From positions 1-64,000 of the forward strand of contig NZ_QBUK01000005.1 in NCBI RefSeq assembly GCF_003058265.1: a stretch of DNA of 64,000 bases, read 5' to 3'. The position numbers and the translations under genes are program-made. The notes beneath the pieces were generated by a model, which saw only the letters and a list, made by a program, of their open reading frames with translations, made no database searches and was not told where the DNA came from. How positions within the stretch are numbered: position 1 is the stretch's first letter; each line of letters opens with the position of its first letter. This document shows, piece after piece, positions 26,926-42,828 of the stretch. This DNA is from Flagellimonas amoyensis. GTDB lineage: Bacteria; Bacteroidota; Bacteroidia; Flavobacteriales; Flavobacteriaceae.

Positions 26926-27579
26926 TTATAAGGACCAGGCTTTTCCACCGGTCAGCGTGTTGACATCTTCACAGGCGATGTACTCTCCTGGTATAGGCAA
27001 ATAGGCCAAGACCTCTTCGCCTACATATTCGGATGATTTGTAGGCCCAAGTGCCCAGATCTCTCAGATCGTTGGCAAAGGAGAAGCGGGAAATATCATCG
27101 TCCAGAGTGGCCTGGCCTCCCTGCATGATGGCTTCCATGTAGCTGTTGATGGCTTCAAAATGCGCTATCTCTTCCTCGTCCGAACGCTTCTTGAGGTATG
27201 TTTGAAGAGCAGGCTCAATGTCCGCGGCTTCAATGTCCATCAAGGTCTCCTTGCCAGAATCTGCCAAGACTTTGTCGTAGAATTTGTTCATCTTCATCAG
27301 AACAAAATCCCTTTGCTCCAAGGGCATTACCTCATCCAAGTATTTGTCGATGAAAACGTGTACGTTCATTTCTGTTGCGGATGGGGTATCTGTTTTCGGA
27401 AGAATCACGTCCAGTGTCTGGGCGAGTGCATATCCTTTTTCTTTGTCCAGAAAACTTGGTACCCACTCGGCATAGGCCGGTTTGTCCTTGCAGCTCTGGA
27501 GCAGTCCCAAAAGGGTCGGTGTGGCCACGGCATAACCAAAGGCCAATCCCATATTCTTAAGTGCAGATCTTCTTTCCAT
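26926..27579 (-). CDS. Gluconate 2-dehydrogenase subunit 3 family protein (gamma subunit), Tat-type lipoprotein
   Basis: I start at ATG 27579 (217 residues), whose A is shared with the stop of the upstream GMC gene (TAATG). The N-terminus MERRSALKNMGLAFGYAV carries a twin Arg, and LGLLQSC gives a lipobox, so it should be a Tat-exported lipoprotein. The mature part has the family's ILPKTDTPSATEMNVHVFID segment and a helical body. In FAD-dependent sugar dehydrogenases this gamma subunit carries the folded GMC alpha subunit through Tat and holds it outside the cytosol. The tight coupling with the GMC gene supports that role here. Confidence 0.9.
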   Translation of the reverse strand: MERRSALKNMGLAFGYAVATPTLLGLLQSCKDKPAYAEWVPSFLDKEKGYALAQTLDVILPKTDTPSATEMNVHVFIDKYLDEVMPLEQRDFVLMKMNKFYDKVLADSGKETLMDIEAADIEPALQTYLKKRSDEEEIAHFEAINSYMEAIMQGGQATLDDDISRFSFANDLRDLGTWAYKSSEYVGEEVLAYLPIPGEYIACEDVNTLTGGKAWSL

Positions 27580-29297
27580 TATATGTTTCCTTTTTTGAGT
27601 TCTTGGGCGGCATGGTTCGCGGCCCTTGCTGTAAATGCCATATAGGTCAAAGAGGGGTTCACGCAACTTGCAGAGGCCATAAAGGCCCCATCGGTCACAT
27701 AAACGTTCTTACAGGCGTGGACTTGGTTGTATCCGTTCACCACAGAGGTCTTTGGATCAAGGCCCATTCGGGCAGTACCCATTTCGTGGATACCCAATCC
27801 AAGGGCATAAGGGTTGTCATAGGGCGTGATGTCCTTGGCACCGGCCTTTTCAAGCATCTGTACCGCTTGGTCCTGCATGTCCTTGCGCATGTTCAGCTCG
27901 TTCTGTCTGATTTCCGCATCGAAGGTAACCGTGGGTAGTCCCCATTTGTCCTTTTTGTCGTAATCCAAGATCATTCTGTTGTCTTCATACGGAAGGATTT
28001 CCCCGAAGGCCAACATGTTCATCGTCCATCCACCGGGTGTCAGGATCGCATCCTTGTAGCCTTTTCCGAAGGAGGCCTCAGCGACCAATTCCTCATAATT
28101 GCCCCGACTGGCTCCACCTTGGTAGCCATAGCCACGGGTAAAGTCCTTCATGTCGGAATCCCCACCAAGGTTCCGGAACCTTGGGATATAGGTTCCGTTG
28201 GGCTTTCGTCCCTTATAGTATTTGTCATCAAAACCTTCAAACTTGCCACTGGCACCAACCAAGAAATGGTGGTCCATGACGTTTCGGCCCAATTGGTCGG
28301 AGTCGTTCCCCAATCCGTTAGGGAACCTGTCCGATTTGGATTGCATCAAAATGGAAGTGGTGGCAATTGCCGAGGCACAAAGGAAAATGACCTTGGCCTT
28401 GAACTCGAACACTTCTTTGGTTTCCCTATCGATCACCTTGACACCGGTCGCTTTTTTGGTATTGGGATCATAAATGATCTCGTGCACGATGGAATCCGGT
28501 CTAAGGGTCATGTTCCCGGTCCTTTCCGCAGCGGGCAATGTGGATGACACACTGCTGAAATAGGCCCCAAATGGACACCCTCTCACACAACGGTTACGGA
28601 ATTGGCAACGTACCCTTCCGTCTCCTTCGAATTTTTTATCACTGTTGATGTGGGCCACCCTTCCAGCGGTGATCACACGGCCGTTGAAGTGCTCGGCCAC
28701 TTTTCCTTTTACGTGTTCTTCCACACAGTTGAGCTCCATCATGGGCTCAAATTGCCCATCAGGCAGTTGGGGAAGGCCCAGGCTTTCGCCCGATACACCG
28801 ATATAACTTTCAACCTTATCGTACCAAGGGGCAATGTCCTTGTAGCGCACGGGCCAATCCACGGCAATGCCTTCGTTCTTATTGGCGGCAAAATCGATGT
28901 CGCTCCAGCGGTAACTGTGACGGCCCCACATAATGGAACGGCCACCCACATGGTAGCCCCTCATCCAGTCAAAACGCTTTACCTCATTGTAAGGATGTTC
29001 CAGATCGTTCACGAACCAATGTTTGGATTCGGCCCTTACAGTATATCCGGTTCTGGCCTGCTTTTCTTGTTGCTTTAGTTCCTCCCTGGTGGGTTGTCCC
29101 GCATTTGGAAAATCCCAAGGGTCTAGGTTGGCTGTGGGGTAATCCTCACGGTGTTTCACCATTGGACCACGTTCCAAGACCAAGGTCTTGAGCCCATTTT
29201 CGCATAGTTCCTTGGCAGCCCAACCACCACTGATGCCCGTTCCTACCACGATGGCATCATAGGATTCTTGCTCTTGGTTGTAATAAAATTTACTCAT
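27579..29297 (-). CDS. GMC-family FAD sugar dehydrogenase (glucoside 3-dehydrogenase-like), module A
   Basis: This 572-residue flavoenzyme has an N-terminal GTGISGG dinucleotide-binding motif (19-25) and ends in a GMC_C domain with H504 (GLGIHEMGTARMG) and N547 (ASCVNPSLTY) as the catalytic pair. Cys231, Cys237 and Cys241 (RCQFRNRCVRGCPFG) give C-x5-C-x3-C, the same spacing I recall for the 3Fe-4S cluster of Burkholderia FAD-glucose dehydrogenase. It has no signal peptide and would be exported with the gamma subunit encoded next. It should oxidise a sugar or glycoside, probably at C3, and pass electrons to the respiratory chain. It is about two-thirds identical by eye to the GMC protein at 35109-36812 over much of its length. 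Confidence 0.92.
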   Translation of the reverse strand: MSKFYYNQEQESYDAIVVGTGISGGWAAKELCENGLKTLVLERGPMVKHREDYPTANLDPWDFPNAGQPTREELKQQEKQARTGYTVRAESKHWFVNDLEHPYNEVKRFDWMRGYHVGGRSIMWGRHSYRWSDIDFAANKNEGIAVDWPVRYKDIAPWYDKVESYIGVSGESLGLPQLPDGQFEPMMELNCVEEHVKGKVAEHFNGRVITAGRVAHINSDKKFEGDGRVRCQFRNRCVRGCPFGAYFSSVSSTLPAAERTGNMTLRPDSIVHEIIYDPNTKKATGVKVIDRETKEVFEFKAKVIFLCASAIATTSILMQSKSDRFPNGLGNDSDQLGRNVMDHHFLVGASGKFEGFDDKYYKGRKPNGTYIPRFRNLGGDSDMKDFTRGYGYQGGASRGNYEELVAEASFGKGYKDAILTPGGWTMNMLAFGEILPYEDNRMILDYDKKDKWGLPTVTFDAEIRQNELNMRKDMQDQAVQMLEKAGAKDITPYDNPYALGLGIHEMGTARMGLDPKTSVVNGYNQVHACKNVYVTDGAFMASASCVNPSLTYMAFTARAANHAAQELKKGNI

Positions 29298-29354
29298 TTA
29301 TTCGGATTGTTTATTTGCTAAATGTATCAATTATTAAATTAATTTTCTACATTT

Positions 29355-29396
29355 AATCCCTATGTTTATTGAGAATTCACTACTATAACGTTGTAG
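29355..29396. promoter_or_regulatory. Shared motif and palindrome in the module A divergent spacer
   Basis: AATCCCTATGTTTAT (29355-29369) recurs in the equivalent spacer of module B as AATCCCTATATTTAT. The TATGTTTA part resembles a -7 box. CTATAACGTTGTAG (29383-29396) is a near-perfect palindrome around a central CG, like LacI-family operators. Both lie between the GMC gene and the TIM-barrel lipoprotein gene. No regulator gene is adjacent. Confidence 0.45.
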
Positions 29397-29432
29397 TTTT
29401 TGGATTCTACATCAAATTTTCAACTTAAAAAT

Positions 29433-30440
29433 ATGAACAGGAGTAGTTTAGCCCAAAAAGGTATTTTATCGGTATTTGCAGTTGTATTGTTCGGGATTAT
29501 TTCCTGCAAACAGAATCCAAAAAAGGAAGTTACCGAAGTAGAGACGGCCCAAGAGATGACCGTTGAGCAAACCGAATCGGACATCAAACTTTCGTTGGCC
29601 CAGTGGTCCATGCACAAAATGATATTGGAAGAAGGGATGGACCCTTACACCTTTGCCGAGAAGGCCAAAGGATGGGGTTTTGAAGGTCTGGAATATGTGA
29701 GCGGACTTTATTACAAGGAACTCCAGGCGGCCAATTTCTCTGAAGAGGCCATGAACAACTGGGTGGAAAAGAGCAAGGCGGAAAGTGAGAAGCACGGTAT
29801 GAAAAACCTGCTCATCATGGTGGACGGTCAGGGCGACTTGGCGGCCACTGATGCAAAGGAGAGGAAAGCGGCCGTGGAGAACCATTACAAGTGGGTAGAT
29901 GCCGCTGCTGCATTGGGATGCCATTCCATCCGTGTCAACCTGAACGGAACACAGGATCCTGAACCATGGGTGCCCGCATCGGTGGACGGACTTACCCAAT
30001 TGGCCACCTATGCCAAGGACAAGAACATCAACATCATTGTGGAGAACCATGGTGGACCTTCCTCAAATGCAGCCTTGTTGGTCGAGGTGATGAAAAAAGT
30101 GGGAATGGACAATTGCGGCACACTACCCGACTTTGGAAATTTCTGTATCAAAAGAGAGGCAGGCGACTACTATGAGTCCAAATGCCTTGAGGAATATGAC
30201 AGATATAAAGGAGTTGAAGAGTTGATGCCCTACGCCAAGGCCGTAAGTGCCAAATCCTACAGTTTTGATGCCGAAGGCAACGAGACCCGTGTGGATTATG
30301 AAAAAATAATGGGCATTGTGGAAGAAGCGGGCTATTCAGGCTTTGTGGGTGTTGAATATGAAGGAAGCGAGCTCAGCGAAGAGGAAGGTATTTTGGCCAC
30401 TAAAAAGTTATTGGAAAAAGTGCTTAATTTACCCGAATAA
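29433..30440 (+). CDS. TIM-barrel lipoprotein, sugar phosphate isomerase/epimerase family
   Basis: I start at ATG 29433 (335 residues); the lipoprotein signal ends in FGIISC, followed by a charged linker. The TIM barrel (about 45-335) shows metal-ligand segments IIVENHGGPSS, TLPDFGNFC and GVEYEGSE. In the strand that usually gives a His ligand this subfamily has AVSAKSYSFD instead. Family members act on keto-sugars or as hydratases and epimerases of sugar intermediates. Being outside the cytosol, it should act on sugars still in the periplasm. It is the first gene of a five-gene plus-strand run (gaps 11, 20, 50 and 21 bases) divergent from the GMC operon. Confidence 0.88.
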   Translation: MNRSSLAQKGILSVFAVVLFGIISCKQNPKKEVTEVETAQEMTVEQTESDIKLSLAQWSMHKMILEEGMDPYTFAEKAKGWGFEGLEYVSGLYYKELQAANFSEEAMNNWVEKSKAESEKHGMKNLLIMVDGQGDLAATDAKERKAAVENHYKWVDAAAALGCHSIRVNLNGTQDPEPWVPASVDGLTQLATYAKDKNINIIVENHGGPSSNAALLVEVMKKVGMDNCGTLPDFGNFCIKREAGDYYESKCLEEYDRYKGVEELMPYAKAVSAKSYSFDAEGNETRVDYEKIMGIVEEAGYSGFVGVEYEGSELSEEEGILATKKLLEKVLNLPE

Positions 30441-30451
30441 TTCTAGGGCCC

Positions 30452-30895
30452 ATGAAGGGATTTTTACAACAGCTCTTCGATTACAATTTCCATTGTAACA
30501 AAAAAATCATTCAACAGTGTGGCAGTCTGGATACAGTCCCTGACAATTGCCAAAGGCTTTTCAGCCATATTTTGAACGCCCATCATATCTGGAACCACAG
30601 ATTGTTGGGCAAGCCCAGTGAGTTTGGGGTGTGGGATGCACAACCTTTTGAAAAGTGGGAAGAGGTCCATTATGAAAACCAGCGCACCTCTTTTGAAATT
30701 GTGACCAACACCGACGATTTTATGAAACGGGTGGAATATGAGAATAGCCAAGGCAGGACCTTTTCCAATGAGGTCAAGGATATGCTTTTCCATATCATCA
30801 ATCATTCCACGCACCATAGGGGCCAGATCATGATGGAACTGCGTGCCTCTGGAACAGTGCCAGAACCGTTGGATTACGTACATTACAAACGATGA
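30452..30895 (+). CDS. DinB-family protein
   Basis: The 147-residue protein folds as a four-helix bundle with metal-binding histidines: H46-47 region (LNAHHIWNHRLLG) and HSTHHRGQIMMEL near residue 123. DinB/YfiT proteins are thiol-dependent or metal-dependent transferases of mostly unknown substrate. Its place inside the sugar operon is odd; it might act on an intermediate or be a passenger. Confidence 0.88.
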   Translation: MKGFLQQLFDYNFHCNKKIIQQCGSLDTVPDNCQRLFSHILNAHHIWNHRLLGKPSEFGVWDAQPFEKWEEVHYENQRTSFEIVTNTDDFMKRVEYENSQGRTFSNEVKDMLFHIINHSTHHRGQIMMELRASGTVPEPLDYVHYKR

Positions 30896-30915
30896 TTACC
30901 TACTAAATATCTAGC

Positions 30916-32142
30916 ATGAACAGTAAAACCAAATTCCAACTTTCCTTTATGATGTTCCTCGAATTTTTTATTTGGGGAGGTTGGTTCGTGTCCTTGGGCA
31001 CATTTTTAGGAAACAATTTGCAAGCAACGGACGCACAGCTTGCCATGGCTTTTTCCACACAATCCTGGGGTGCCATCATAGCCCCGTTCATCATTGGTCT
31101 GATTGCGGACCGCTATTTTAACGCAGAACGGATTTTAGGGGTCTTGCACCTCATGGGTGCCGTATTGATGTACCTGATGTATCAAAGTACCGATTTTGCC
31201 ACCTTCTATCCGTATGTCCTGATTTATATGATTCTGTACATGCCCACACTGGCCTTGGTGAACTCGGTCTCTTTCAACCAAATGTCGGATCCGGCCAAAC
31301 AATTTTCATTTGTACGGGTTTTTGGTACCATCGGATGGATCGTTGCCGGGCTTTTGATCAGTTATGTTTTTTTCTGGGATTCGCCCGAAGGTAGGGAGGC
31401 AGGTCTGTTGAAGAACACCTTTTTAATGACGGGAATCGCTTCGGCACTTTTGGGCCTTTTTAGCTTCACACTGCCAAAGACTCCACCAAAAGTAAATCGA
31501 AATGAAAAAGTGGACATTTCTGAGATATTGGGCTTGGATGCCCTGAAACTTTTGAAGGACAAAAACTTCCTTCTGTTCTTTATATCTTCAGTATTGATAT
31601 GCATTCCTCTGGCATTTTATTACCAAAACGCAAACCCGTTCCTTGCCGAGATCGGCGTGGAAAACCCAACGGGGCTGATGACCATTGGGCAGGGTTCAGA
31701 GGTGTTGTTCATGTTGTTGCTCCCTTATTTCTTCAAGAAATTTGGATTCAAGAAAACCATATTGGCAGGGATGCTGGCCTGGACCGTGAGATATTTGCTT
31801 TTTGCATATGGGGATACAGGAGAACTTTTGTTCATGCTTATCATTGGGATCGCGCTCCACGGAATCTGTTATGACTTCTTCTTTGTTTCAGGACAGATCT
31901 ACACCGATTCAAAAGCAGGAGAGAAATATAAAAGTTCTGCACAGGGACTGATTACCTTGGCCACCTATGGTGTAGGTATGCTTATTGGGTTCTGGGTCGC
32001 TGGAAAAATAGCAGATTATTTTAAAATAGAAGGTGTGCACGAATGGCAGAATATATGGATGTACCCAGCGGGCTTTGCCTTACTGGTGGCCATATTGTTC
32101 GTACTGTTCTTCAAAAATGAAGAAGTAGCCTATAAATCATAA
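30916..32142 (+). CDS. MFS transporter of the NupG-like nucleoside:H+ symporter family
   Basis: The 408-residue protein has twelve transmembrane helices. MMFLEFFIWGGWFVSLGTFL and FVRVFGTIGWIVAGLLI are typical of the NupG/XapB family, which imports nucleosides with protons. In Bacteroidetes such genes often sit beside Gfo/Idh and TIM-barrel sugar genes, so a sugar or keto-sugar substrate is more likely here than nucleosides. That is an inference from context. It is the third gene of the module A run. Confidence 0.87.
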   Translation: MNSKTKFQLSFMMFLEFFIWGGWFVSLGTFLGNNLQATDAQLAMAFSTQSWGAIIAPFIIGLIADRYFNAERILGVLHLMGAVLMYLMYQSTDFATFYPYVLIYMILYMPTLALVNSVSFNQMSDPAKQFSFVRVFGTIGWIVAGLLISYVFFWDSPEGREAGLLKNTFLMTGIASALLGLFSFTLPKTPPKVNRNEKVDISEILGLDALKLLKDKNFLLFFISSVLICIPLAFYYQNANPFLAEIGVENPTGLMTIGQGSEVLFMLLLPYFFKKFGFKKTILAGMLAWTVRYLLFAYGDTGELLFMLIIGIALHGICYDFFFVSGQIYTDSKAGEKYKSSAQGLITLATYGVGMLIGFWVAGKIADYFKIEGVHEWQNIWMYPAGFALLVAILFVLFFKNEEVAYKS

Positions 32143-32192
32143 AAGCAAACGACCATATATAAGTAGGGACACATAAATAACAAAAGCAAACC

Positions 32193-33431
32193 ATGAAAAA
32201 CGTAAATAAGAACCAGCTATTTTTGGCGGCCTGCATATCCTTGGTCGTCACTTCCATGACCTTTGCCATCAGGGCAGGGATATTGACCCAATTGGGACTG
32301 GAATTCGGGATTTCCAACCAACAACTGGGCTGGATAAACAGTATGGCCTTTTTAGGCTTTCCTCTAGCGATGATTCTTGGAGGGCTGCTTTATAACAAAG
32401 TAGGGGCGCGAAAACTTATGGTGGCCGCTTTTGTCTGCCACCTGCTTGGATTGGTGCTTACCATAATGGCAGGAGGTTTCTGGACCTTGATCATCTCCAC
32501 ATTCTTTATTGGCTTTGCCAACGGATCTGTTGAGGCGGCCTGTAACCCTATGATTGCGGATATGTACACCAAAAACCGTACAGCAATGCTCAATAAATTC
32601 CATGTTTGGTTTCCTGGAGGTATTGTGATAGGTTCTTTGATCTCAAAGTTCATGACCGATTTTGGAATGGGATGGCAGTTGCAGATTGGGGTGATGCTGA
32701 TACCAACCCTGATTTATGGCTACATGTTCTTCAAGCAAGAATTTCCAGAAAGCGAGCATATCGAAACGGATACGGCCAAGAACATCAAATCACTTGCCGA
32801 TCCCTTGTTCATTTTCATTTTGGCATGCATGACCCTTACCGCCATTTCAGAATTTGGGCCACAACAATGGGTAGAACGTATTTTGGGGAACTCTGGGGCC
32901 AGTCCAATGCTTGTTTTGGCCATGGTAACGGGAATCATGGCAATAGGGAGGTACTTTGCTGGTCCAATTGTGCACAGGTTGAATCCAATAGGCGTACTTT
33001 TGTTGTCCGCGATCATAACCACCGCAGCCGTGTATAGCATGAGCATCGCCGAAGGGTCCATGATCTATTTGGCAGCTGTTCTTTTTGCCTTGGGCGTTTG
33101 TTACTTCTGGCCGACCATGATCGGTTTCACCTCGGAATACCTCCCCAAGACCGGGGCATTGGGAATGTCCTTGGTGGGAGGGGCCGGAATGTTTGCTACC
33201 TCGATCTGGCAACCTGTCATAGGTACATGGTTGGATGACGCCAAGGAAGCTGCAGTTGCCTCAGGGATAACGGAACAAGTTGCTGAGCTTACTGCAGGCA
33301 AGGCCACCTTAGGAAAGATGATGTTTTTCCCCTTGGCTGTTGCCGTCTTGTTCGCATTATTGTTCTTGTTCCGAAAGAAACTCGAGGAAAGAAGAGTGCC
33401 ACAAGGCCATGTTTCAGAGGAAATTGTTTAA
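32193..33431 (+). CDS. MFS transporter, second of the sugar operon
   Basis: The 412-residue protein has twelve transmembrane helices and MFS loop motifs such as GGLLYNKVGARKLM between helices 2 and 3. It is unlike the preceding NupG-type carrier. I would expect it to import a sugar or keto-sugar product into the cytosol for the Gfo/Idh dehydrogenase encoded 21 bases downstream. A more precise family cannot be told by eye. Confidence 0.88.
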   Translation: MKNVNKNQLFLAACISLVVTSMTFAIRAGILTQLGLEFGISNQQLGWINSMAFLGFPLAMILGGLLYNKVGARKLMVAAFVCHLLGLVLTIMAGGFWTLIISTFFIGFANGSVEAACNPMIADMYTKNRTAMLNKFHVWFPGGIVIGSLISKFMTDFGMGWQLQIGVMLIPTLIYGYMFFKQEFPESEHIETDTAKNIKSLADPLFIFILACMTLTAISEFGPQQWVERILGNSGASPMLVLAMVTGIMAIGRYFAGPIVHRLNPIGVLLLSAIITTAAVYSMSIAEGSMIYLAAVLFALGVCYFWPTMIGFTSEYLPKTGALGMSLVGGAGMFATSIWQPVIGTWLDDAKEAAVASGITEQVAELTAGKATLGKMMFFPLAVAVLFALLFLFRKKLEERRVPQGHVSEEIV

Positions 33432-33452
33432 TTAAATAGTAAAAAATAGAAA

Positions 33453-34589
33453 ATGCCAAAAAAAATAAGACTTGGAATTCTTGGAGGAGGCGGTGATTCC
33501 CTCATCGGGGTGTTGCACAGAGTGGCCTCTTTCATTAATGACAACTATGAAATCGTAGGAGCGGTATTCAATCCAGACTACGAGCAAAGTTTAGATTTCG
33601 CAAAGGAAATAGATATCCCTACCAACCGTATCTACAAGGATTTTGATACGTTGATCGAAGAGGAAATGAAATTGCCCGAGGACGAACGCATACAAGTATG
33701 TTCCATCCTTACGCCCAATTTCCTGCATTTTCCAATGGCCAAGAAGCTCTTGGAAAACGGGTTCCATGTCATCTGTGAAAAGCCGATGACCACAACCTAT
33801 GATGAGGCCAAGATTTTGCAGGACACCTTGGAAAAAGCGGGTACCGTTTTTGCCGTGACACATACCTACACAGGCTATCCCATGGTCCGCCAGATGCGGG
33901 AGATGATCAAAGATGGTGTGATAGGGAAAGTCCACAAAGTGGATGCACAATACTACCAAGGCTGGATGAACCCCATAATCCACGACAAGGAAAAGCGTGG
34001 AACGGTTTGGAGACTCGACCCCAAAAAGGCGGGCATCAGTTCCTGTATGGGGGATATAGGCGTGCATGCCTTCAACATGATCGAATTTACCACAGGATTG
34101 CAAATACAGTCGCTTTTATGCGATTTCAACTACCTCTACGATGACAATGTGATGGACATGGACGGAACCGTGCTCATCCGAATGGGCAAGAACGTAAAGG
34201 GCGTCATTAGGGCGAGCCAAGTGGCCACTGGTGAGGAAAACAATATTACCATTGCCATCTATGGTCAAAAAGGAGGGTTGAAATGGGAACAGGAAAACCC
34301 AAATTACCTCTACAAGTTGAACGACCCCGAACCATTGCAGGTCTACAAACCGGGCCATGCATACAATTCCGAACTATCGCTGGACGGAACCAAACTGCCC
34401 CCCGGACATCCGGAAGGTATTTTTGATGCCATGGCCAATATCTATTTGGGTGTGGCAAGGGCCATCCGTGGAGAGCAATACAATAGTGGGGAATTCCCCA
34501 CCTTGTTGGACGGCGTGCGCGGTCTCAATTTTATTGAGAATACCGTGGCCTCCCACAAACAGGGAAATATTTGGGTGGATATGGATTGA
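33453..34589 (+). CDS. Cytosolic Gfo/Idh/MocA-family dehydrogenase
   Basis: This 378-residue enzyme has no signal peptide. The Rossmann start is LGILGGGGDSLIG, with CEKPMTTTYDEA as the family EKP motif and SCMGDIGVHAFNMIEF holding the Asp and His of the active site. It should use NAD(P) to reduce or oxidise a sugar at one carbon. As the last gene of the module A run, after two transporters, it fits the cytosolic reduction of an imported 3-keto-sugar. The run ends at the terminator at 34611. Confidence 0.92.
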   Translation: MPKKIRLGILGGGGDSLIGVLHRVASFINDNYEIVGAVFNPDYEQSLDFAKEIDIPTNRIYKDFDTLIEEEMKLPEDERIQVCSILTPNFLHFPMAKKLLENGFHVICEKPMTTTYDEAKILQDTLEKAGTVFAVTHTYTGYPMVRQMREMIKDGVIGKVHKVDAQYYQGWMNPIIHDKEKRGTVWRLDPKKAGISSCMGDIGVHAFNMIEFTTGLQIQSLLCDFNYLYDDNVMDMDGTVLIRMGKNVKGVIRASQVATGEENNITIAIYGQKGGLKWEQENPNYLYKLNDPEPLQVYKPGHAYNSELSLDGTKLPPGHPEGIFDAMANIYLGVARAIRGEQYNSGEFPTLLDGVRGLNFIENTVASHKQGNIWVDMD

Positions 34590-34610
34590 TGTTTGCCCTA
34601 AAACATTGAA

Positions 34611-34645
34611 AATAATGTCCGCTTTTGGCGGACATTATTTTTTAT
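34611..34645. terminator. Bidirectional terminator between convergent operons
   Basis: AATAATGTCCGC (34611-34622) pairs perfectly with GCGGACATTATT (34628-34639), with a TTTTG loop and T's following. The stop codon of the ASCH gene lies inside the right arm. Confidence 0.92.
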
Positions 34646-35099
34646 ATAACATTTCAAACGTTTCAAAGACCACGATCATACTTTCCGTAGGTTGGGTGCC
34701 AAATTTGGCAAGCTCTCGGGTGTAAAAGTCCCAATGGACCTTTTTCCAATGGGCGAGGCTCTTGTCTCCTTCACCTTCAATACGGGCATGTTCTTCTCGA
34801 ATGGCAAAATAGGGGACCAACTTCACCGAGGTGGTCCGAATGACACATTTGGCAGTTCCTTTCCAGTCCGTGACCACATAAAAGTCACCTATTTTGGGCA
34901 ATTTTTCGTTCCGTAGCTGGATTCCCTTCAAAGAAGGGGAAGTGGCCCTCTTGATTTCCTTGCAGACAAGGTCGGCACAGGTATCGGCATCCTTTTCATT
35001 GTCACCGAAATAAATGACTTTGGGGGCATCTTCGGAGGCAAATTCCAAATGGGCATCCAAAAAATCGCCCCAAAGATTTCGGGCAGAGGCATTTTCCAT
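34635..35099 (-). CDS. ASCH-domain protein
   Basis: This 154-residue cytosolic protein has the ASCH (PUA-like) pattern: a Lys/Arg-rich IKRATSPSLKG region, KIGDFYVVTDWKGTAKCVIRT, and the C-terminal HWKKVHWDFYTREL. ASCH proteins bind RNA or act as small amidohydrolases on modified nucleosides. It starts ten bases after the module B GMC gene and probably shares its mRNA. A link to sugar oxidation is not obvious. Confidence 0.85.
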   Translation of the reverse strand: MENASARNLWGDFLDAHLEFASEDAPKVIYFGDNEKDADTCADLVCKEIKRATSPSLKGIQLRNEKLPKIGDFYVVTDWKGTAKCVIRTTSVKLVPYFAIREEHARIEGEGDKSLAHWKKVHWDFYTRELAKFGTQPTESMIVVFETFEMLYKK

Positions 35100-35108
35100 A
35101 AGCAGGGT

Positions 35109-36812
35109 TTAAGAAAATTTATGTTGTTTGAATTGTTGTGCGGCATGGTTTGCGGCCCTTGCAGTAAAGGCCATATAGGTCAACGATGGGTTTACACAGT
35201 TGGCCGAGGTCATGAATGCCCCGTCGGTAACATATACGTTGGGAACATCATGCAATTGGTTATGTTTGTTCAGGATGGATGTTTTTGGGTCGTGTCCCAT
35301 TCTTGCCCCTCCCATTTCGTGAATGCCAAGACCGGGACCTGTTTCCCTATCGTAGGCGGTGACGTTCCTAAAGCCAGCGGCTTTAAGCATGGCAGTGGCT
35401 TCTTCCTTAATGGCCTCCCTCATTTTATATTCATTCTCCTTGAATTCCACATCAAAGTCCAATTGGGGCAATCCCCATTGGTCTTTTTTGTCCTGGCTCA
35501 GGGTCACGCGATTGTCGTGGTATGGGAGCATTTCACCAAAACCGGTCATCCCGATTTCCCATCCTCCCGGTTCTAAAATGGCTTCTTTGAGATTGGCACC
35601 ATAACCCAGTTCGGCCACAGTTTCGGCCCAATTGCCCCTACTGGCACTGCCTTGGTAGCCAAAACCACGTAGAAAATCCTTTTGTTTGGTTTTTTCATCA
35701 AGGTTGACAAACCGAGGGATATAGAACCCATTGGGCCTTCTTCCCTTGTAATAGTTGTCCAAATGGCCATCTACCTTGGCAGAAGCACCCAATTGGTAGT
35801 GATGGTCCATGATGTTCCGACCGAGCTGGTCATGGTTATTGCCCATGCCGTTGGGGAACACCTTCGATTTGGATTGCAATAAAATGCCCACAGAGGCCAT
35901 GGCCGAGGCACAGAGAAAAACAATTTTTGCCTTGAACTCTATTTTTTCATGGGTTTCGGCATCCACGATCTTTACCCCGGTGGCCCTTTTTTGATTTTCA
36001 TCATACACCACCTCATACACAATGGAATTGGGGCGCAGGGTCAGATTTCCGGTGCGCTCTGCAGCGGGCAGGGTAGAGGAATTACTGCTGAAATATCCTC
36101 CGAACGGACATCCTCTCCAACACCGGTTTCTGTATTGGCAAGGACCCCGGCCTTCAATATTGGGTTCTTTATCAGTAATGTGGGCCACCCGGCCAATGGT
36201 CAAGAGCCGATCATCATCGAATTTTGAGCCCAAGGTTTGTTGCAGCTCTTTTTCCACACAGTTCAGTTCCATGGCAGGCTGAAATTGTCCATCGGGCAAC
36301 TGTTTCAGGCCCAATTTTTCGCCGCTTATCCCAATGTAGGTTTCCACTTTATCGTACCAAGGGGCTATGTCTTCATAACGTACCGGCCAATCTACGGCAA
36401 TGCCCTCATTTTTATTGGCTTCAAAATCAATATCGCTCCATCGGTAGCTTTGTCGGCCCCAGGTCAGGGAGCGTCCACCCACTTGGTATCCCCTGATCCA
36501 ATCGAACCTTTTGGTTTCTTGGTAGGGATGTTCCAGGTCGTTCACAAAAAAATGCTTTACATCGTCTCGGGGAGCCCAACCAACGCGTAATTGTTTATGG
36601 TACTTTTCTTGGTCCTCCCGGCTCAGGTTTCCCTTATAGGGAAAATCCCATGTGTCCTTGTTCATGGTCTTGTAGTCCTCCACATGTTTTACCATCGGAC
36701 CACGTTCCAGTACCAAGGTCGTAAGACCATTTTCACACAGTTCCTTGGCGGCCCAGCCCCCACTTATACCTGTGCCAACAACAATAGCATCATAAACTTT
36801 GTTTTCGTACAC
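35109..36812 (-). CDS. GMC-family FAD sugar dehydrogenase, module B
   Basis: The 567-residue enzyme starts at GTG 36812; an in-frame stop lies just upstream. It is a close paralogue of the module A enzyme, with GTGISGG (13-19), catalytic H498 (GLGIHEMGGARMG) and N541 (ANCVNPSLTY). Cys225, Cys231 and Cys235 (PCQYRNRCWRGCPFG) keep the C-x5-C-x3-C iron-sulfur-type motif. Unlike module A, no gamma subunit is next to it; an ASCH gene follows. It may share the module A gamma subunit or use one encoded elsewhere. It is divergent from the TIM-barrel/DUF1080 operon. Confidence 0.92.
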   Translation of the reverse strand: MYENKVYDAIVVGTGISGGWAAKELCENGLTTLVLERGPMVKHVEDYKTMNKDTWDFPYKGNLSREDQEKYHKQLRVGWAPRDDVKHFFVNDLEHPYQETKRFDWIRGYQVGGRSLTWGRQSYRWSDIDFEANKNEGIAVDWPVRYEDIAPWYDKVETYIGISGEKLGLKQLPDGQFQPAMELNCVEKELQQTLGSKFDDDRLLTIGRVAHITDKEPNIEGRGPCQYRNRCWRGCPFGGYFSSNSSTLPAAERTGNLTLRPNSIVYEVVYDENQKRATGVKIVDAETHEKIEFKAKIVFLCASAMASVGILLQSKSKVFPNGMGNNHDQLGRNIMDHHYQLGASAKVDGHLDNYYKGRRPNGFYIPRFVNLDEKTKQKDFLRGFGYQGSASRGNWAETVAELGYGANLKEAILEPGGWEIGMTGFGEMLPYHDNRVTLSQDKKDQWGLPQLDFDVEFKENEYKMREAIKEEATAMLKAAGFRNVTAYDRETGPGLGIHEMGGARMGHDPKTSILNKHNQLHDVPNVYVTDGAFMTSANCVNPSLTYMAFTARAANHAAQQFKQHKFS

Positions 36813-36837
36813 CTTAGTATTGTTTTAATTGTTATTG

Positions 36838-36875
36838 AATCCCTATATTTATGTTTTACTTCATGAGATGTAAAA
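36838..36875. promoter_or_regulatory. Shared motif and inverted repeat in the module B divergent spacer
   Basis: AATCCCTATATTTAT (36838-36852) matches the module A motif at 14 of 15 positions in the same direction relative to the flanking genes. TTTTAC (36854-36859) and GTAAAA (36870-36875) form a 6-bp inverted repeat right after it. The pair suggests a common regulator of both modules. Confidence 0.45.
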
Positions 36876-36954
36876 TTAACACAGTTTTTTTCTTAAATAT
36901 AGAAGATAAATCCCAAATGGATGCGGATTTATAAATTCTTAAAATCAATTTTAA

Positions 36955-38007
36955 ATGAAGACAATCAAAGGACCGGCTGTATTCTTAGCGCAATTTGTGG
37001 ACAGTCAACCTCCGTTCAACTCCTTGGACGGACTTTGCAAATGGGCATCGAGTTTGGGGTACAAAGGTATCCAGATACCCACTTGGGTATCGTTCCTCAT
37101 CGATTTGGACAAGGCAGCCGAAAGCCAGGATTATTGTGACGAACTGAAAGGAAAGGTCAATTCCTACGGATTGGAGATCACAGAGCTTTCCACCCACTTG
37201 CAAGGACAATTGGTAGCGGTGCATCCAGCCTATGACATCATGTTCGATAACTTTGCGCCCGATGCCCTTAAGGGCAAGCCCAAAGAGCGTACCCAGTGGG
37301 CCATTGAAACCGTAAAAAAAGCAGCTATCGCAAGCAGAAGGTTGGGTCTTAATGCACATGCCACTTTTTCAGGGGCATTGCTTTGGCACACGGCCCATCC
37401 TTGGCCACAACGCCCTGCCGGATTGGTGGAAATGGGTTTTGAGGAGCTTGCCAACAGATGGCTGCCCATCCTGAACCATTTTGATGAACAGGGAGTGGAT
37501 GTCTGCTATGAGATCCATCCTGGGGAAGACCTACATGATGGGGACACCTTTGAACGCTTTTTGGCCGCAACGGGCAACCATAAGCGGGTGAACATTCTGT
37601 ACGACCCAAGCCATTTTGTATTGCAGCAGTTGGACTATATTGCATACATAGATCATTACCATGAGTTCATCAAAGCATTCCATGTGAAGGATTCGGAATT
37701 TAATCCTACGGGCAAGAAAGGTGCCTTTGGAGGGTACAATGATTGGGGTGATAGGGCCGGTAGGTACCGTTCCTTGGGAGATGGCCAAATCGATTTTAAG
37801 ACCATCTTCTCCAAACTCACCCAATACGGATGCGATGTTTGGGCCGTAATGGAATGGGAATGCTGTATCAAGAGCCCCGAACAGGGAGCTCGTGAGGGGG
37901 CCAAATTCATACAAGATCACATCATTGAGGCAACCACCAAAACCTTTGATGATTTTGCTGGAGCAGAAATAGATAAAAATCAACTAAAACGAATATTAGG
38001 ATTATGA
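36955..38007 (+). CDS. Cytosolic sugar phosphate isomerase/epimerase-family TIM-barrel protein
   Basis: This 350-residue protein has no signal peptide. The metal-ligand set looks complete: Glu in VCYEIHPGEDLHDG, Asp/His in LYDPSHFVLQQLD, His in IKAFHVKDSEFNP and Glu in AVMEWECCIKS. ATFSGALLWHTAHPWPQRP is typical of the subgroup found with Gfo/Idh and DUF1080 genes. In the Bacteroides 3-keto-glycoside pathway a relative acts as the hydratase or epimerase step. The downstream DUF1080 gene overlaps it by four bases (ATGA). Confidence 0.9.
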   Translation: MKTIKGPAVFLAQFVDSQPPFNSLDGLCKWASSLGYKGIQIPTWVSFLIDLDKAAESQDYCDELKGKVNSYGLEITELSTHLQGQLVAVHPAYDIMFDNFAPDALKGKPKERTQWAIETVKKAAIASRRLGLNAHATFSGALLWHTAHPWPQRPAGLVEMGFEELANRWLPILNHFDEQGVDVCYEIHPGEDLHDGDTFERFLAATGNHKRVNILYDPSHFVLQQLDYIAYIDHYHEFIKAFHVKDSEFNPTGKKGAFGGYNDWGDRAGRYRSLGDGQIDFKTIFSKLTQYGCDVWAVMEWECCIKSPEQGAREGAKFIQDHIIEATTKTFDDFAGAEIDKNQLKRILGL

Positions 38008-38741
38008 AAAAACCAATTGTTTTGGTCGCATTGGCCCTGACCTTTGCCTGCAAGGAAAAACCAAAGGAAGAAACCGCGGTAACGGAAGAAATCATTGAGG
38101 TAGTGGAAGAAACTGAATGGACCACACTATTTGACGGCACATCCTTTGAAGGATGGCACTTTTACAATGGAGGGGAAGTAGGTGCACCTTGGAAGATAGA
38201 GGATGGCAGCATGGTGCTCTATCCACCGGAAACAAGGCCCGAAGGATCCAATTACAATCTGGTCACGGACAAGGAATTCACCGATTTTGTGCTCACCTTG
38301 GAATGGAACATAGCCGAAGGAGGGAACAGCGGCATTTTCTGGGGGGTCAATGAAAGTGAAGAATATGGACAACCCTATGTGACCGGTCCTGAAATCCAAG
38401 TGCTGGATGATGAGAGGCACCCCGATGCCAAGAACGGTACCGATCGTTTGGCCGGCGCATTGTATGATATGGTATCCCCATCGGCAAATGTGGTCAAACC
38501 TGCGGGGGAATGGAATGCCGTTGAAGTCATGATCAACCACAAGACGAATGAAGGCTACATCATGCTCAATGGGACCAAGGTTGTTGAATTTCCTGTTGAA
38601 GGTGAAGGATGGGATGCATTGGTCGCCGATTCAAAGTTTGCGGATTGGGAAGCTTTTGGAGCTTTCAAAACAGGTAAAATAGGACTACAGGACCACGGCA
38701 ATGTGGTGTCTTTTAGAAATATCAAGATCAAAGAACTATAG
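38004..38741 (+). CDS. DUF1080 (3-keto-disaccharide hydrolase) lipoprotein
   Basis: The 245-residue lipoprotein has the signal MKKPIVLVALALTFAC. DUF1080 landmarks are TLFDGTSFEGWHFY, the NSGIFWGVNE segment, GPEIQVLDDERHPD and the C-terminal GKIGLQDHGNVVSFRNI. The family cleaves 3-keto-glycosides, by elimination in the Bacteroides enzyme. It overlaps the TIM-barrel gene before it and is one base from the next DUF1080 gene, so the three are surely co-transcribed. It should work outside the cytosol on the product of the GMC enzyme. Confidence 0.92.
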   Translation: MKKPIVLVALALTFACKEKPKEETAVTEEIIEVVEETEWTTLFDGTSFEGWHFYNGGEVGAPWKIEDGSMVLYPPETRPEGSNYNLVTDKEFTDFVLTLEWNIAEGGNSGIFWGVNESEEYGQPYVTGPEIQVLDDERHPDAKNGTDRLAGALYDMVSPSANVVKPAGEWNAVEVMINHKTNEGYIMLNGTKVVEFPVEGEGWDALVADSKFADWEAFGAFKTGKIGLQDHGNVVSFRNIKIKEL

Positions 38742-38742
38742 C

Positions 38743-39495
38743 ATGTCAACATTCAGAAACATCTTCGTGGCCCTGGCCATACTGATGGGCCTATACGTGT
38801 CCGCCCAAGAAGTGGAACCTGCCAAACCAGAGGAAACCGAAAGCTATCAGCCCGTACCACCAAAGGTGGTGCCCGGCGAACAGGGCGCCCCTCCCAGTGA
38901 TGCCATTGTGCTTTTTGACGGCACCAACTTGGACCAATGGATCAGTTCCGTGGATAGCACTGCGGCCAAATGGACCCTCAACAAGGACGGTAGCGTCACC
39001 GTGAAGAACAGGACAGGGGATATCCAGACTAAGCAGAATTTTGGCAGTGTCCAGCTCCATATCGAATGGAGATCACCTGCTGAGGTGCAGGGCAAGGGCC
39101 AGAGCAGGGGAAATAGTGGGGTGTTCCTTTCCAACCTCTACGAAGTGCAGGTTCTGGACAACAATGATAATGATACCTATGTGAACGGTCAGGTGGCGTC
39201 CATATACAAACAACATATCCCTCTGGCCATGGCTTCCGTGCCCACAGGCGAGTGGAATGTGTATGACATCATCTACCATGCCCCTGTTTTTGAAAAGGGA
39301 CAAAAAGTGACCTCAGGGACATTGACGGTCATCCACAATGGTGTTTTGGTACAGGACCATGCCGAGATCAAGGGTACGACCCCCTATATTGGGTGGCCCA
39401 AAAACCCGCCACACGGCAAGGGTCCCATCAGGCTGCAAGACCATGGGGACAATAGCAGGGTGAGCTATAGAAACATTTGGTTGAGGGAGCTATAA
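38743..39495 (+). CDS. DUF1080 (3-keto-disaccharide hydrolase) secreted protein
   Basis: I start at ATG 38743 (250 residues), which gives a Sec signal (MSTFRNIFVALAILMGLYVSAQ) without a lipobox. After a Pro/Glu-rich linker come IVLFDGTNLDQW, RGNSGVFLSNLYEVQVLDN and GPIRLQDHGDNSRVSYRNIW. It is a soluble paralogue of the lipoprotein before it, and the two differ enough to suggest different glycosides. No terminator is clear before yicC 92 bases on, but a separate -7 box (TACCTTTG 39561-39568) serves yicC. Confidence 0.92.
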   Translation: MSTFRNIFVALAILMGLYVSAQEVEPAKPEETESYQPVPPKVVPGEQGAPPSDAIVLFDGTNLDQWISSVDSTAAKWTLNKDGSVTVKNRTGDIQTKQNFGSVQLHIEWRSPAEVQGKGQSRGNSGVFLSNLYEVQVLDNNDNDTYVNGQVASIYKQHIPLAMASVPTGEWNVYDIIYHAPVFEKGQKVTSGTLTVIHNGVLVQDHAEIKGTTPYIGWPKNPPHGKGPIRLQDHGDNSRVSYRNIWLREL

Positions 39496-41632: not shown

Positions 41633-42739
41633 TCATTGCTTGGCCTTCACTACTCCCACCATGCTATCGGCCGTGCCGTAGTACAAGTGCCAAGTCCCAT
41701 TGAACAGTACAAGTCCTTCCAAAAAAGTGGTGCCATCTACGTACTGTCCCGATTTTTCAAAAGGCAGTTCGGGCTTGATAAAGGGCACATCGGTGCGGTC
41801 CAGTAGTTTCCAGGGCTCGTTTGGGTCAAAAAGTGCCTGTCCACCCGTGTAAATTCGATTGCCCAGTTCCTTTACGCCGATGTTCTGCGAGTTTCCTGCA
41901 TTGTAGAGCACCACAATACCATTTTCCGTGAGCAAGGGAGGTGGTCCTGCCTCCACCAGCCAAGAATCAAAATAACCGGGTCTAGGGCTTAAAACTGGGG
42001 CAAGTTTACCTTCGTAGGTTTCCACGGGAGCCCAGTCTTTCAGATTTGTTGAACTGGCCAGCCAAATGTGTGGAACTCCATAGTACATCCAATATTTTCC
42101 ATTGATCTTTGCTGCGACCAACTTCCCATTTTTGAGCTCGGTCACGATGGCCCCAGATTTGGTCTCGCTTGTGTGGTAGATCTCTTCCTTATACTTTTTG
42201 AAAACAGGGCCATGCTTTTCCCAATGCAGCAGATCTTTGGAAGTGGCCACTGCAAGGTGAGGTACTTCGCGGTTCCATTGGGTATAGGTCAGCACGTAGG
42301 TTCCATCTTCCATTTCCACGATCCTTGGGTCTTCCGTACCGCCAGGCCATTCATTCTGCTTTTGATGGTCTTCATTGGGATAAAAAACGGGCACAGGCTG
42401 TTTGGTATAGATGGTCCCATCTTCGGAAACGGCCATCCCGATTCGGGAGCGGTGCCCTCCAATTTCCTTTTCCCCTAATTTCTCTTCGGCTCTATAAAGC
42501 ACATATATCCTCCCTTCCTTAACAATGGCGGCCGGATTGAAAGTGGCCATGGATTCCCAATGCGAAATTTGATGGGTTATCGGGTCTTTAAACTCGGATT
42601 CCGAATTCTGCTGAAGAATGGGTCGTGCATCTTGATCGCGTTCAAAGGGCCCCAACATCCATTCCTTTTCCTTGGTTTGTGCCAAAGCAGAGAAAGAGTA
42701 GAACATGAGAAACACATGGACGAACCCACGAAGCATCAT
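41633..42739 (-). CDS. Secreted GH130-like glycosidase/phosphorylase family protein
   Basis: I prefer ATG 42739 because MMLRGFVHVFLMFYSFSALAQ is a clean Sec signal (368 residues); ATG 42793 would add 18 residues. The five-bladed propeller shows GH130/DUF377 marks: TFNPAAIVKEGRIYVLYRAEE, GGTEDPRIVEM and the C-terminal WHLYYGTADSMVGV. GH130 includes mannosyl phosphorylases and beta-1,2-mannosidases; an exported one is more likely a hydrolase, since phosphorolysis yields sugar phosphate outside the cell. No polysaccharide-utilisation genes flank it. It might supply sugars to the nearby oxidation modules. Confidence 0.82.
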   Translation of the reverse strand: MMLRGFVHVFLMFYSFSALAQTKEKEWMLGPFERDQDARPILQQNSESEFKDPITHQISHWESMATFNPAAIVKEGRIYVLYRAEEKLGEKEIGGHRSRIGMAVSEDGTIYTKQPVPVFYPNEDHQKQNEWPGGTEDPRIVEMEDGTYVLTYTQWNREVPHLAVATSKDLLHWEKHGPVFKKYKEEIYHTSETKSGAIVTELKNGKLVAAKINGKYWMYYGVPHIWLASSTNLKDWAPVETYEGKLAPVLSPRPGYFDSWLVEAGPPPLLTENGIVVLYNAGNSQNIGVKELGNRIYTGGQALFDPNEPWKLLDRTDVPFIKPELPFEKSGQYVDGTTFLEGLVLFNGTWHLYYGTADSMVGVVKAKQ

Positions 42740-42828
42740 TAGGCCATTTTTAGAGGGAGCCGTAATGTTAAAAGCGAAGAAATTTTGCATCATTATTCAG
42801 CCGGATTTGCTGGAAAAGATACGTTTTT

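Follow-up and report, generated by a model that had tools for sequence, protein, structure and literature searches.

The Bacteroides thetaiotaomicron cluster BT2156-BT2160 follows a logic that combines DUF1080, TIM-barrel and Gfo/Idh proteins. In systems of the LacABC type, LacA is a GMC flavoenzyme, LacB a cytochrome c and LacC the gamma subunit. First oxidation in B. thetaiotaomicron is carried out by BT2158, a periplasmic dehydrogenase (PMC11300592), while the lactose cluster of Caulobacter crescentus encodes LacABC with a DUF1080 protein, a transporter, two epimerases and a reductase; Pedobacter, Algoriphagus and Indibacter are named as Bacteroidetes cases of this lacABC-DUF1080 type (PMC9007349). 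An Agrobacterium operon encodes the flavoenzyme GlycDH, a TAT partner, two TIM-barrel-type proteins and a Gfo protein (PMC10628242), and the levoglucosan operon lgdA-B1-B2-C of Bacillus smithii provides oxidation, elimination, hydration and reduction (PMC7676230). FAD-dependent glycoside oxidoreductases of the GMC type have been described from Rhizobium GIN611, Sphingobacterium, Stenotrophomonas and Agrobacterium, and Zobellia GMC proteins 53-58% identical to the characterised enzymes were proposed as further candidates (PMC6950322).

Organization of the locus

The window, a stretch of 64,000 nucleotides of Flagellimonas amoyensis, carries, within 12.6 kb, genes for two GMC flavoenzymes, one gamma subunit, two TIM barrels, two DUF1080 proteins, two MFS carriers and one Gfo/Idh dehydrogenase. 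All the families named in the preliminary description are present at the coordinates below, each protein having at least one Pfam match above cut-off; the starts of gamma (26926-27579), TIM1 (29433-30440) and D2 (38743-39495) were adjusted by eye.

26926..27579, minus strand: gamma subunit (PF13618, 78.7 bits; twin arginine and cysteine in leader)
27579..29297, minus strand: GMC1 flavoprotein, catalytic subunit (PF05199/PF00732)
29298..29432, no strand: divergent spacer A, between the starts of GMC1 and TIM1
29355..29369, plus strand: 15-bp motif AATCCCTATGTTTAT in spacer A, candidate cis-element
29382..29397, no strand: 16-bp palindrome ACTATAACGTTGTAGT in spacer A, candidate operator
29433..30440, plus strand: TIM1, xylose-isomerase-like TIM barrel (PF01261), lipoprotein-like leader by eye
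30452..30895, plus strand: DinB-family protein (PF05163), probable passenger
30916..32142, plus strand: NucH, nucleoside:H+ symporter-family MFS carrier (PF03825, 408 bits)
32193..33431, plus strand: second MFS carrier, variable (PF07690)
33453..34589, plus strand: Gfo/Idh dehydrogenase, predicted 3-keto-sugar reductase (PF01408/PF22725/PF02894)
34635..35099, minus strand: ASCH-domain protein (PF04266), probable passenger
35109..36812, minus strand: GMC2, GMC1 paralogue (67% to GMC1) without adjacent gamma
36813..36954, no strand: divergent spacer B, between the starts of GMC2 and TIM2
36838..36852, plus strand: 15-bp motif AATCCCTATATTTAT in spacer B, second copy
36955..38007, plus strand: TIM2, 2-hydroxy-3-keto-glucal hydratase homologue (PDB 8RO4 match)
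38004..38741, plus strand: D1, DUF1080 (3keto-disac_hyd; PF06439, 172.7 bits), lipoprotein leader by eye
38743..39495, plus strand: D2, DUF1080 (PF06439, 130.3 bits), secretion leader by eye

Both GMC/TIM pairs are divergent across the gaps 29298-29432 and 36813-36954, as the preliminary description had recognised, although it passed over the DinB and ASCH genes inside the locus. Its reading of the locus as two paralogous modules holds for the GMC pair, which is clearly paralogous (67% identity), and not for the remainder: D1 and D2 are only 27% identical and TIM1 finds no BLAST match to TIM2 at E<=1.

Flavoenzymes and gamma subunit

GMC1 has the GMC fold, with its FAD motif (GTGISGGW at 19) and C-terminal His and Asn motifs (HEMGTARMG at 504, NPSLT at 547), as well as a C-x5-C-x3-CP stretch at 231; GMC2 carries the same motifs. 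The closest solved relatives are fructose and glucose dehydrogenases, the former aligning with both proteins over their full length with the C-x5-C-x3-C stretch retained. A PF13618 gamma subunit with a twin-arginine leader adjoins GMC1 and is the sole gamma gene beside the two GMCs of the cluster. Its residues R3, R4 and C30 are invariant in 27 aligned sequences, and by eye it appears to be a Tat lipoprotein; its structural model (mean pLDDT 77) found no Foldseek match at E<=0.001, nor its sequence a PDB match at E<=0.1. No cytochrome family was found by Pfam among the 12 cluster proteins, and none of the eight genome-wide PF13442 matches lies within the window.

Compared by description with the Caulobacter lac cluster (PMC9007349), the locus differs in having two GMCs, tandem DUF1080 proteins and ASCH and DinB passengers; a cytochrome partner of the LacB type was not found among its 12 proteins. 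The Zobellia proposal likewise concerns Flavobacteriaceae GMCs as glycoside oxidoreductases, and we infer that the proteins in question are orthologs of those described here, a Zobellia locus (L073) holding part of the cluster; the available part of that account names the GMCs without mention of gamma, DUF1080, TIM barrels or a cluster (PMC6950322).

TIM barrels, DUF1080 proteins and Gfo

TIM2 aligns end to end with 8RO4, a "2-hydroxy-3-keto-glucal hydratase" (E 1.4e-161; 228 of 349 aligned residues identical, 65%), and has no signal peptide by eye. It retains the 8RO4 stretches EIHPG (save an I/L exchange), DPSHF, HVKD and EWE, which we take to be the metal site of the hydratase. From its name and size, 8RO4 is probably the hydratase of the Agrobacterium operon. 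That operon resembles the present locus in coupling a flavoenzyme to a partner with a TAT signal and in having a pair of TIM-barrel-type proteins together with a Gfo reductase, but its eliminase is the TIM barrel AtOGE (PMC10628242), whereas DUF1080 proteins are present here. AtOGE (8BVK) is absent from the sequence and fold matches listed for TIM1, which may nonetheless be akin to it. The best solved match of TIM1 is 4OVX, its fold neighbours include both epimerases and deglycosidases, and its residues E204, D233, E308 and E310 are invariant in 31 aligned sequences.

D1 and D2 match the Pfam family "3-keto-disaccharide hydrolase" (PF06439) far above its cut-off of 26.8 bits and both have export leaders by eye; D1 matched 12 solved sequences and D2 matches 4QHZ (E 1.9e-74). 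Gfo has no export signal by eye. Since its scores against the NCBIfam models BT_2158 (37.6 bits, cut-off 750) and BT_2159 (23.3 bits, cut-off 650) miss the cut-offs, it lies outside both B. thetaiotaomicron families; its best NCBIfam match, levoglucosan dehydrogenase, was rejected as a family assignment at 97.6 bits against a cut-off of 650. The locus shares DUF1080, TIM barrel and Gfo/Idh with BT2156-BT2160, but BT2158 performs the first oxidation there (PMC11300592), whereas a GMC is the candidate here. With the B. smithii lgd operon it has in common two sugar-isomerase-type proteins, a Gfo reductase and a sequence of steps like the one predicted here; lgd differs in its NAD-dependent first step and ABC transporter, and the available text names neither GMC nor DUF1080 (PMC7676230).

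Gene order in relatives and probable history of the cluster

We compared 76 loci, taken from the 80 best-ranking among 97 relatives, a sample that favours close relatives because these were picked by exact peptide patterns. Gene order was traced by matching the proteins of the window at a coverage of at least half, so that intervening unrelated genes are invisible and weak homologues can escape. Among the 70 loci bearing GMC2, the exact core order is preserved in 46, another 15 are shorter stretches of it ending at a locus or contig edge, and nine differ internally, six of the latter lacking D1 or D2 at the usual place; the gene arrangement is not a matter of chance. ASCH accompanies 67 of the 70 and the second MFS carrier 28, and in none of the 67 loci that show the next gene after GMC2 is that gene a gamma. 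TIM1 is missing from two otherwise preserved loci (L064 and L080), the order is rearranged in L083, and the Zobellia locus is a GMC2-ASCH-Gfo-NucH-DinB-TIM1 run reaching the contig ends. Beyond this sample, a Pseudoalteromonas plasmid carries Gfo, TIM2, MFS, DUF1080, GMC, gamma and a TIM barrel consecutively, in a survey that viewed six regions of 30 listed matches (from 651 and 354 matching records).

Five of the six loci without GMC2 have gamma-GMC divergent from a single run TIM1-NucH-Gfo-TIM2-D1, which suggests that GMC2 and ASCH split what had been one operon. DinB went undetected in five of the six; among the single-run loci, L074 has ASCH and DinB and L079 a second Gfo. Interruption of a single operon by GMC2 and ASCH is the likely origin of the two-module appearance, and the reading as two paralogous modules is rejected, the GMC alone being clearly duplicated and the five outgroup loci forming one run. 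Duplication and loss were not one simple step, because in the GMC tree (which leaves out the L061 GMC2 segment, interrupted by an in-frame stop) the only GMC of a Dokdonia locus (L081) falls in the GMC2 clade; simple insertion of a GMC1 copy accordingly finds no clean support there.

Co-occurrence across the class

Co-occurrence of these families in related genomes had been set beforehand as a refutation test, and it was found: of 148 further genomes from the class, 14 have a TIM2 relative and 14 a GMC1 relative; both occur in 13, and each occurs alone in one (Fisher p 1.3e-16, phylogeny ignored). The count excludes a weak TIM2 match in G107 (32%, E 1.8e-42). Within 17-20 kb around TIM2 in the 14 genomes, Gfo was found in 12, and a GMC, D1 or D2, and NucH in 10 each; three have their GMC match at another place in the assembly, and one genome has no GMC match at E<=1e-100. 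TIM1, near TIM2 in only one of the 14 and absent from L064 and L080, is not a fixed member of the set.

Predicted pathway and alternative readings

From the observed families, gene order, conservation, co-occurrence, TIM2 identity and GMC motifs, we infer reactions, locations (from leaders read by eye), an electron path and a history. It is probable that the genes form one conserved cluster that likely began as a single operon, later interrupted by a second GMC and ASCH, and that is predicted to break down glycosides through C3 oxidation, cleavage, hydration and reduction. A periplasmic GMC-gamma dehydrogenase would oxidise the sugar to a 3-keto-glycoside, with the respiratory chain taking up the electrons. 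The DUF1080 proteins, which are exported, would then split this product to give a 2-hydroxy-3-keto-glycal, or hydrolyse it. The MFS carriers would take up the glycal; in the cytoplasm, TIM2 would convert it by hydration into a 3-keto-hexose and Gfo would reduce this to a hexose. TIM1, itself exported, may work on the 3-keto-sugar beyond the inner membrane, either as an eliminase or as an epimerase. The families, TIM2 identity and co-occurrence bear out the earlier view of a 3-keto-glycoside gene set in which a GMC enzyme, which is not NAD-linked, is the candidate for the first step.

The locus might instead house two separate pathways as neighbours: unit 1 would consist of gamma, GMC1, TIM1, the carriers and Gfo and serve one substrate, for instance a polyol or an anhydrosugar, and unit 2, with GMC2, TIM2 and the DUF1080 proteins, would serve glycosides. 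The dissimilarity of TIM1 and TIM2, the confinement of the palindrome to spacer A and the levoglucosan dehydrogenase match of Gfo, far under cut-off as it is, would fit such a division, but we consider it unlikely given that five outgroup loci carry unit 1 and TIM2-D1 as a single run, that Gfo lies near TIM2 in most sampled genomes, that both spacers have the 15-bp motif and that GMC2 has no gamma next to it wherever the following gene was visible. Somewhat less probable still is that the GMCs oxidise another position or substrate (alcohols, polyols, acids), with DUF1080 and TIM2 drawing on 3-keto-glycosides that the cell produces by means of different dehydrogenases. The kinship to fructose and glucose dehydrogenases is compatible with this, as are the Gfo/Idh-like genes adjoining a two-domain DUF1080 gene elsewhere in the genome (L103); against it stand the joint presence of GMC1 and TIM2 relatives in 13 of 148 genomes, each alone in one, the clustering of the Zobellia GMCs with characterised glycoside oxidoreductases (PMC6950322) and the Agrobacterium operon, in which a hydratase accompanies a flavoenzyme that oxidises C3 (PMC10628242).

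Within the single-cluster reading, we raise tentatively, as a rather doubtful extension, that the two divergent GMCs share one Tat-exported gamma, widening the substrate range, that the inner membrane cuts the pathway, and that one new cis-element governs both divergent promoters. Oxidation and cleavage would then take place outside and hydration and reduction inside, with the carriers importing the reactive 2-hydroxy-3-keto-glycal between them.

Spacer motif and palindrome

The 15-bp motif common to spacers A and B and the 16-bp palindrome were spotted by eye and tested afterwards. With at most one mismatch allowed, the motif is found at five places in its own genome and the reversed pattern at two; a third exact site and one one-mismatch site precede genes without evident link, and another sits within an open frame. 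Several genera at a greater distance match it poorly in their spacer A (4-6 mismatches). The palindrome occurs in spacer A and not in spacer B and is matched exactly only once in the 4.1 Mb genome, while half of the spacer-A regions from relatives (31 of 62) contain its core; these counts and those of the motif are not independent, because the loci have common ancestry.

Significance

The suggestion that this gene combination might represent a pathway version of its own is not supported, as a GMC-driven 3-keto-glycoside route is already published for Caulobacter (PMC9007349) and Agrobacterium (PMC10628242). New here are the probable operon-splitting history, the single gamma beside two GMCs, the shared 15-bp spacer motif and a palindrome that is single-copy in the genome. 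As a candidate for a respiratory, GMC-based variant of non-hydrolytic glycoside breakdown, the locus is chromosomal and conserved in many genera of Flavobacteriaceae, and the proposed history would explain its odd two-module layout. It raises the questions of whether one export partner serves two catalytic subunits and whether a keto-glycal intermediate crosses the membrane, and the motif and palindrome offer concrete handles on a putative regulator of the cluster.

Gene content and paralogy within the cluster

The 12.6-kb cluster (26926-39495 of the window) lies in a 4.1-Mb genome assembled in 22 contigs. Every one of its proteins has at least one Pfam match above the cut-off.

Gene content of the cluster, in order along the window
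gamma (-), PF13618 subunit
GMC1 (-), candidate flavoprotein dehydrogenase
29298-29432, divergent spacer A
TIM1 (+), TIM-barrel protein
DinB (+)
NucH (+), nucleoside-symporter-type MFS carrier
MFS (+), second MFS carrier
Gfo (+), Gfo/Idh dehydrogenase
ASCH (-), ASCH-domain gene
GMC2 (-), candidate flavoprotein dehydrogenase
36813-36954, divergent spacer B
TIM2 (+), TIM-barrel protein
D1 (+), DUF1080 protein
D2 (+), DUF1080 protein

Upstream lies ribonucleotide reductase, and downstream YicC, guanylate kinase (Gmk) and a CTP_transf_like protein. A GH130-family gene is found nearby (41633-42793) and was detected in 17 of 70 relatives' GMC2 loci. The preliminary description had read the region as two divergent, paralogous modules. 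GMC1 and GMC2 share 67% identity, D1 and D2 share 27%, and TIM1 gave no BLAST match to TIM2 at E<=1, so that the modules reduce to two divergent spacers and one clearly duplicated gene, that of the GMC protein.

Conservation and co-occurrence

Loci were drawn with GMC2 from one genome per species, the best 80 of 97 relatives yielding 76 distinct loci, 70 of which carry GMC2. Among the GMC2 relatives listed, from which records of the same genome may have been excluded, the closest named were those of Flagellimonas hadalis (96%) and Allomuricauda taeanensis (95%). The exact order D2 D1 TIM2 GMC2 ASCH Gfo TIM1 GMC1 gamma recurs in 46 of these 70 loci, 15 others hold sub-runs of it ended by a locus or contig edge, and nine deviate internally.

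GMC2 loci deviating from the core order
L039, L040, L044, L047: D1 not found
L070: D1-like gene at the place of D2
L037: additional D1
L049: additional GMC
L064 (also without D2), L080: TIM1 not found

GMC2 is flanked by TIM2 and ASCH in 63/70 loci; in the remaining seven, one side falls outside the locus (six) or is a second GMC (one). The second MFS carrier was detected in 28/70. The ASCH-domain gene (34635-35099) accompanies GMC2 in 67/70 loci and is kept in L074, where GMC2 is absent.

The proposed association of these families in related genomes was borne out in 149 genomes of the same class: among the 148 other than our own, TIM2 (at least 63% identity) was present in 14, GMC1 (E<=1e-100) in 14 and both in 13 (Fisher p 1.3e-16, uncorrected for phylogeny). 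Within 17-20 kb of TIM2, these 14 genomes carry Gfo (12), GMC (10), D1 or D2 (10), NucH (10), gamma (4, at 23-28% identity) and TIM1 (1). GMC and a TIM2-type gene also stand together in four of six plasmid regions viewed (Ketogulonicigenium, Hymenobacter, Pseudoalteromonas, Croceicoccus); the Catenovulum region combines GMC and gamma with DUF1080 and a different TIM barrel, and in the stretch viewed from Rhizobium TIM2 and Gfo are present and GMC is absent.

Predicted enzyme functions

The solved sequences nearest to GMC1 and GMC2 are fructose and glucose dehydrogenase subunits. A C-x5-C-x3-CP stretch that aligns with fructose dehydrogenase is found in all homologues scored (58/58 GMC1, 69/69 GMC2), as are, nearly throughout, HxxGxxRMG (58/58 and 68/69) and NP[SA]LT (56/58 and 69/69); GxGxSGGW occurs in 58/58 GMC1 and 49/69 GMC2 homologues, the other 20 GMC2 reading GTGITGGW. 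The cysteines of the first stretch presumably bind a 3Fe-4S cluster, and if they do, both proteins would act as dehydrogenases that pass electrons to a respiratory acceptor, and not as oxidases. The gamma leader has an invariant twin arginine and one invariant cysteine (27 sequences).

TIM2 is identical at 228 of 349 residues to PDB 8RO4, named 2-hydroxy-3-keto-glucal hydratase; D1 resembles several solved DUF1080 proteins and D2 resembles 4QHZ. The closest structure to the TIM1 model (pLDDT 88.6) is 4OVX, followed by C-glycoside deglycosidases together with the isomerase Art22 and, after these, by 3-epimerases; the 3-keto-glucoside 4-epimerase YcjR is also among the model's matches. The predicted activity could be that of an eliminase or of an epimerase. 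Glu204, Asp233, Glu308 and Glu310 of TIM1 are invariant in 31 sequences, all of which have Ser272 at the position that, by eye, seems to match TIM2 His243. By a simple pattern, 42/66 TIM1 orthologs have a leader twin arginine, which the TIM1 of our genome lacks. In the leader of our genome (29433-29510) and of several near relatives the twin arginine is missing and the cysteine kept, hinting at a changed export route.

Elsewhere in the genome, a second GMC-gamma pair (L100:8860-11231; contig C1:20859-23230) is 83% identical to GMC1 and 75% to gamma. It is preceded by 1070-aa and 569-aa proteins that are SusC/SusD-like by size and leader, as judged by eye, and the 19.5-kb L100 stretch gave no match to the other cluster proteins. 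On contig C3 (L103:5899-9814), a two-domain DUF1080 protein has as neighbours two proteins resembling Gfo/Idh, whose leaders look Tat-like by eye; together they may form an NAD-linked 3-keto-glycoside set.

Candidate cis-elements in the divergent spacers

Each spacer contains an exact copy of the 15-bp motif AATCCCTATRTTTAT, at 29355 in A and at 36838 in B, and the genome has one further exact site. At up to two mismatches the window holds 3 sites versus 0.35 expected, a number reached by 1 of 100 shuffles. At the same tolerance the motif is present in 30/62 spacer A and 52/67 spacer B regions of relatives, and in both spacers of one locus in 28/56, against a background of 28 sites in 1.42 Mb outside the spacers of the same loci; in several more distant genera the spacer A match is poor. 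Spacer A also contains the 16-bp palindrome ACTATAACGTTGTAGT (29382-29397), a candidate operator. This is its sole exact occurrence in the genome; at one or two mismatches there are 3 other sites, versus 1 per strand for a reversed control. Its core is found in 31/62 spacer A versus 0/67 spacer B regions of relatives; three further core sites (L017, L064, L080) apparently belong, from the gene maps, to spacer A with the neighbouring gene cut off or not found. No regulator gene was found in the cluster, and we regard both elements as leads to its regulation.

History of the cluster

Five of the six loci without GMC2 (L074, L079, L081, L082, L084) have gamma-GMC divergent from TIM1-NucH-Gfo-TIM2-D1; in the sixth, a Saprospiraceae MAG (L083), the order is rearranged. 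Because DinB is present and ASCH kept in L074, GMC2 was likely lost there. L079 has a second Gfo. YicC and Gmk still lie alongside in L081 and L084, which places these clusters at the same chromosomal site. The most economical reading is that of a single operon, split later by GMC2-ASCH. In a FastTree phylogeny of 154 GMCs, rooted on a 50% identical copy on contig C17, GMC2 forms a clade of 70 tips (support 0.89), and GMC1 one of 59 tips plus the C1 copy (support 1.0). The lone GMC of Dokdonia and the second copy of Ulvibacterium join the GMC2 side (support 1.0), suggesting that the duplication may be older than the insertion at this cluster.

Relation to known systems

A conserved non-hydrolytic pathway was reportedly set out by Kastner in 2024. 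The literature consulted, from which most subscription papers were absent, contained no description of this Flavobacteriaceae arrangement. The preliminary description had supposed a distinct version of the pathway. That version is already known: in Caulobacter, LacABC goes with proteins of the DUF1080 family, with a transporter and a reductase, and with two epimerases, Bacteroidetes examples being given (PMC9007349), and in Agrobacterium GlycDH oxidises C3, AtOGE and AtHYD (preliminary there) with a Gfo completing the route to glucose (PMC10628242). Zobellia GMCs have been placed with characterised glycoside oxidoreductases (PMC6950322). The cluster is real, conserved and functionally coherent; the version of the pathway is a known one, and the cluster's arrangement and cis-elements are new, as details.
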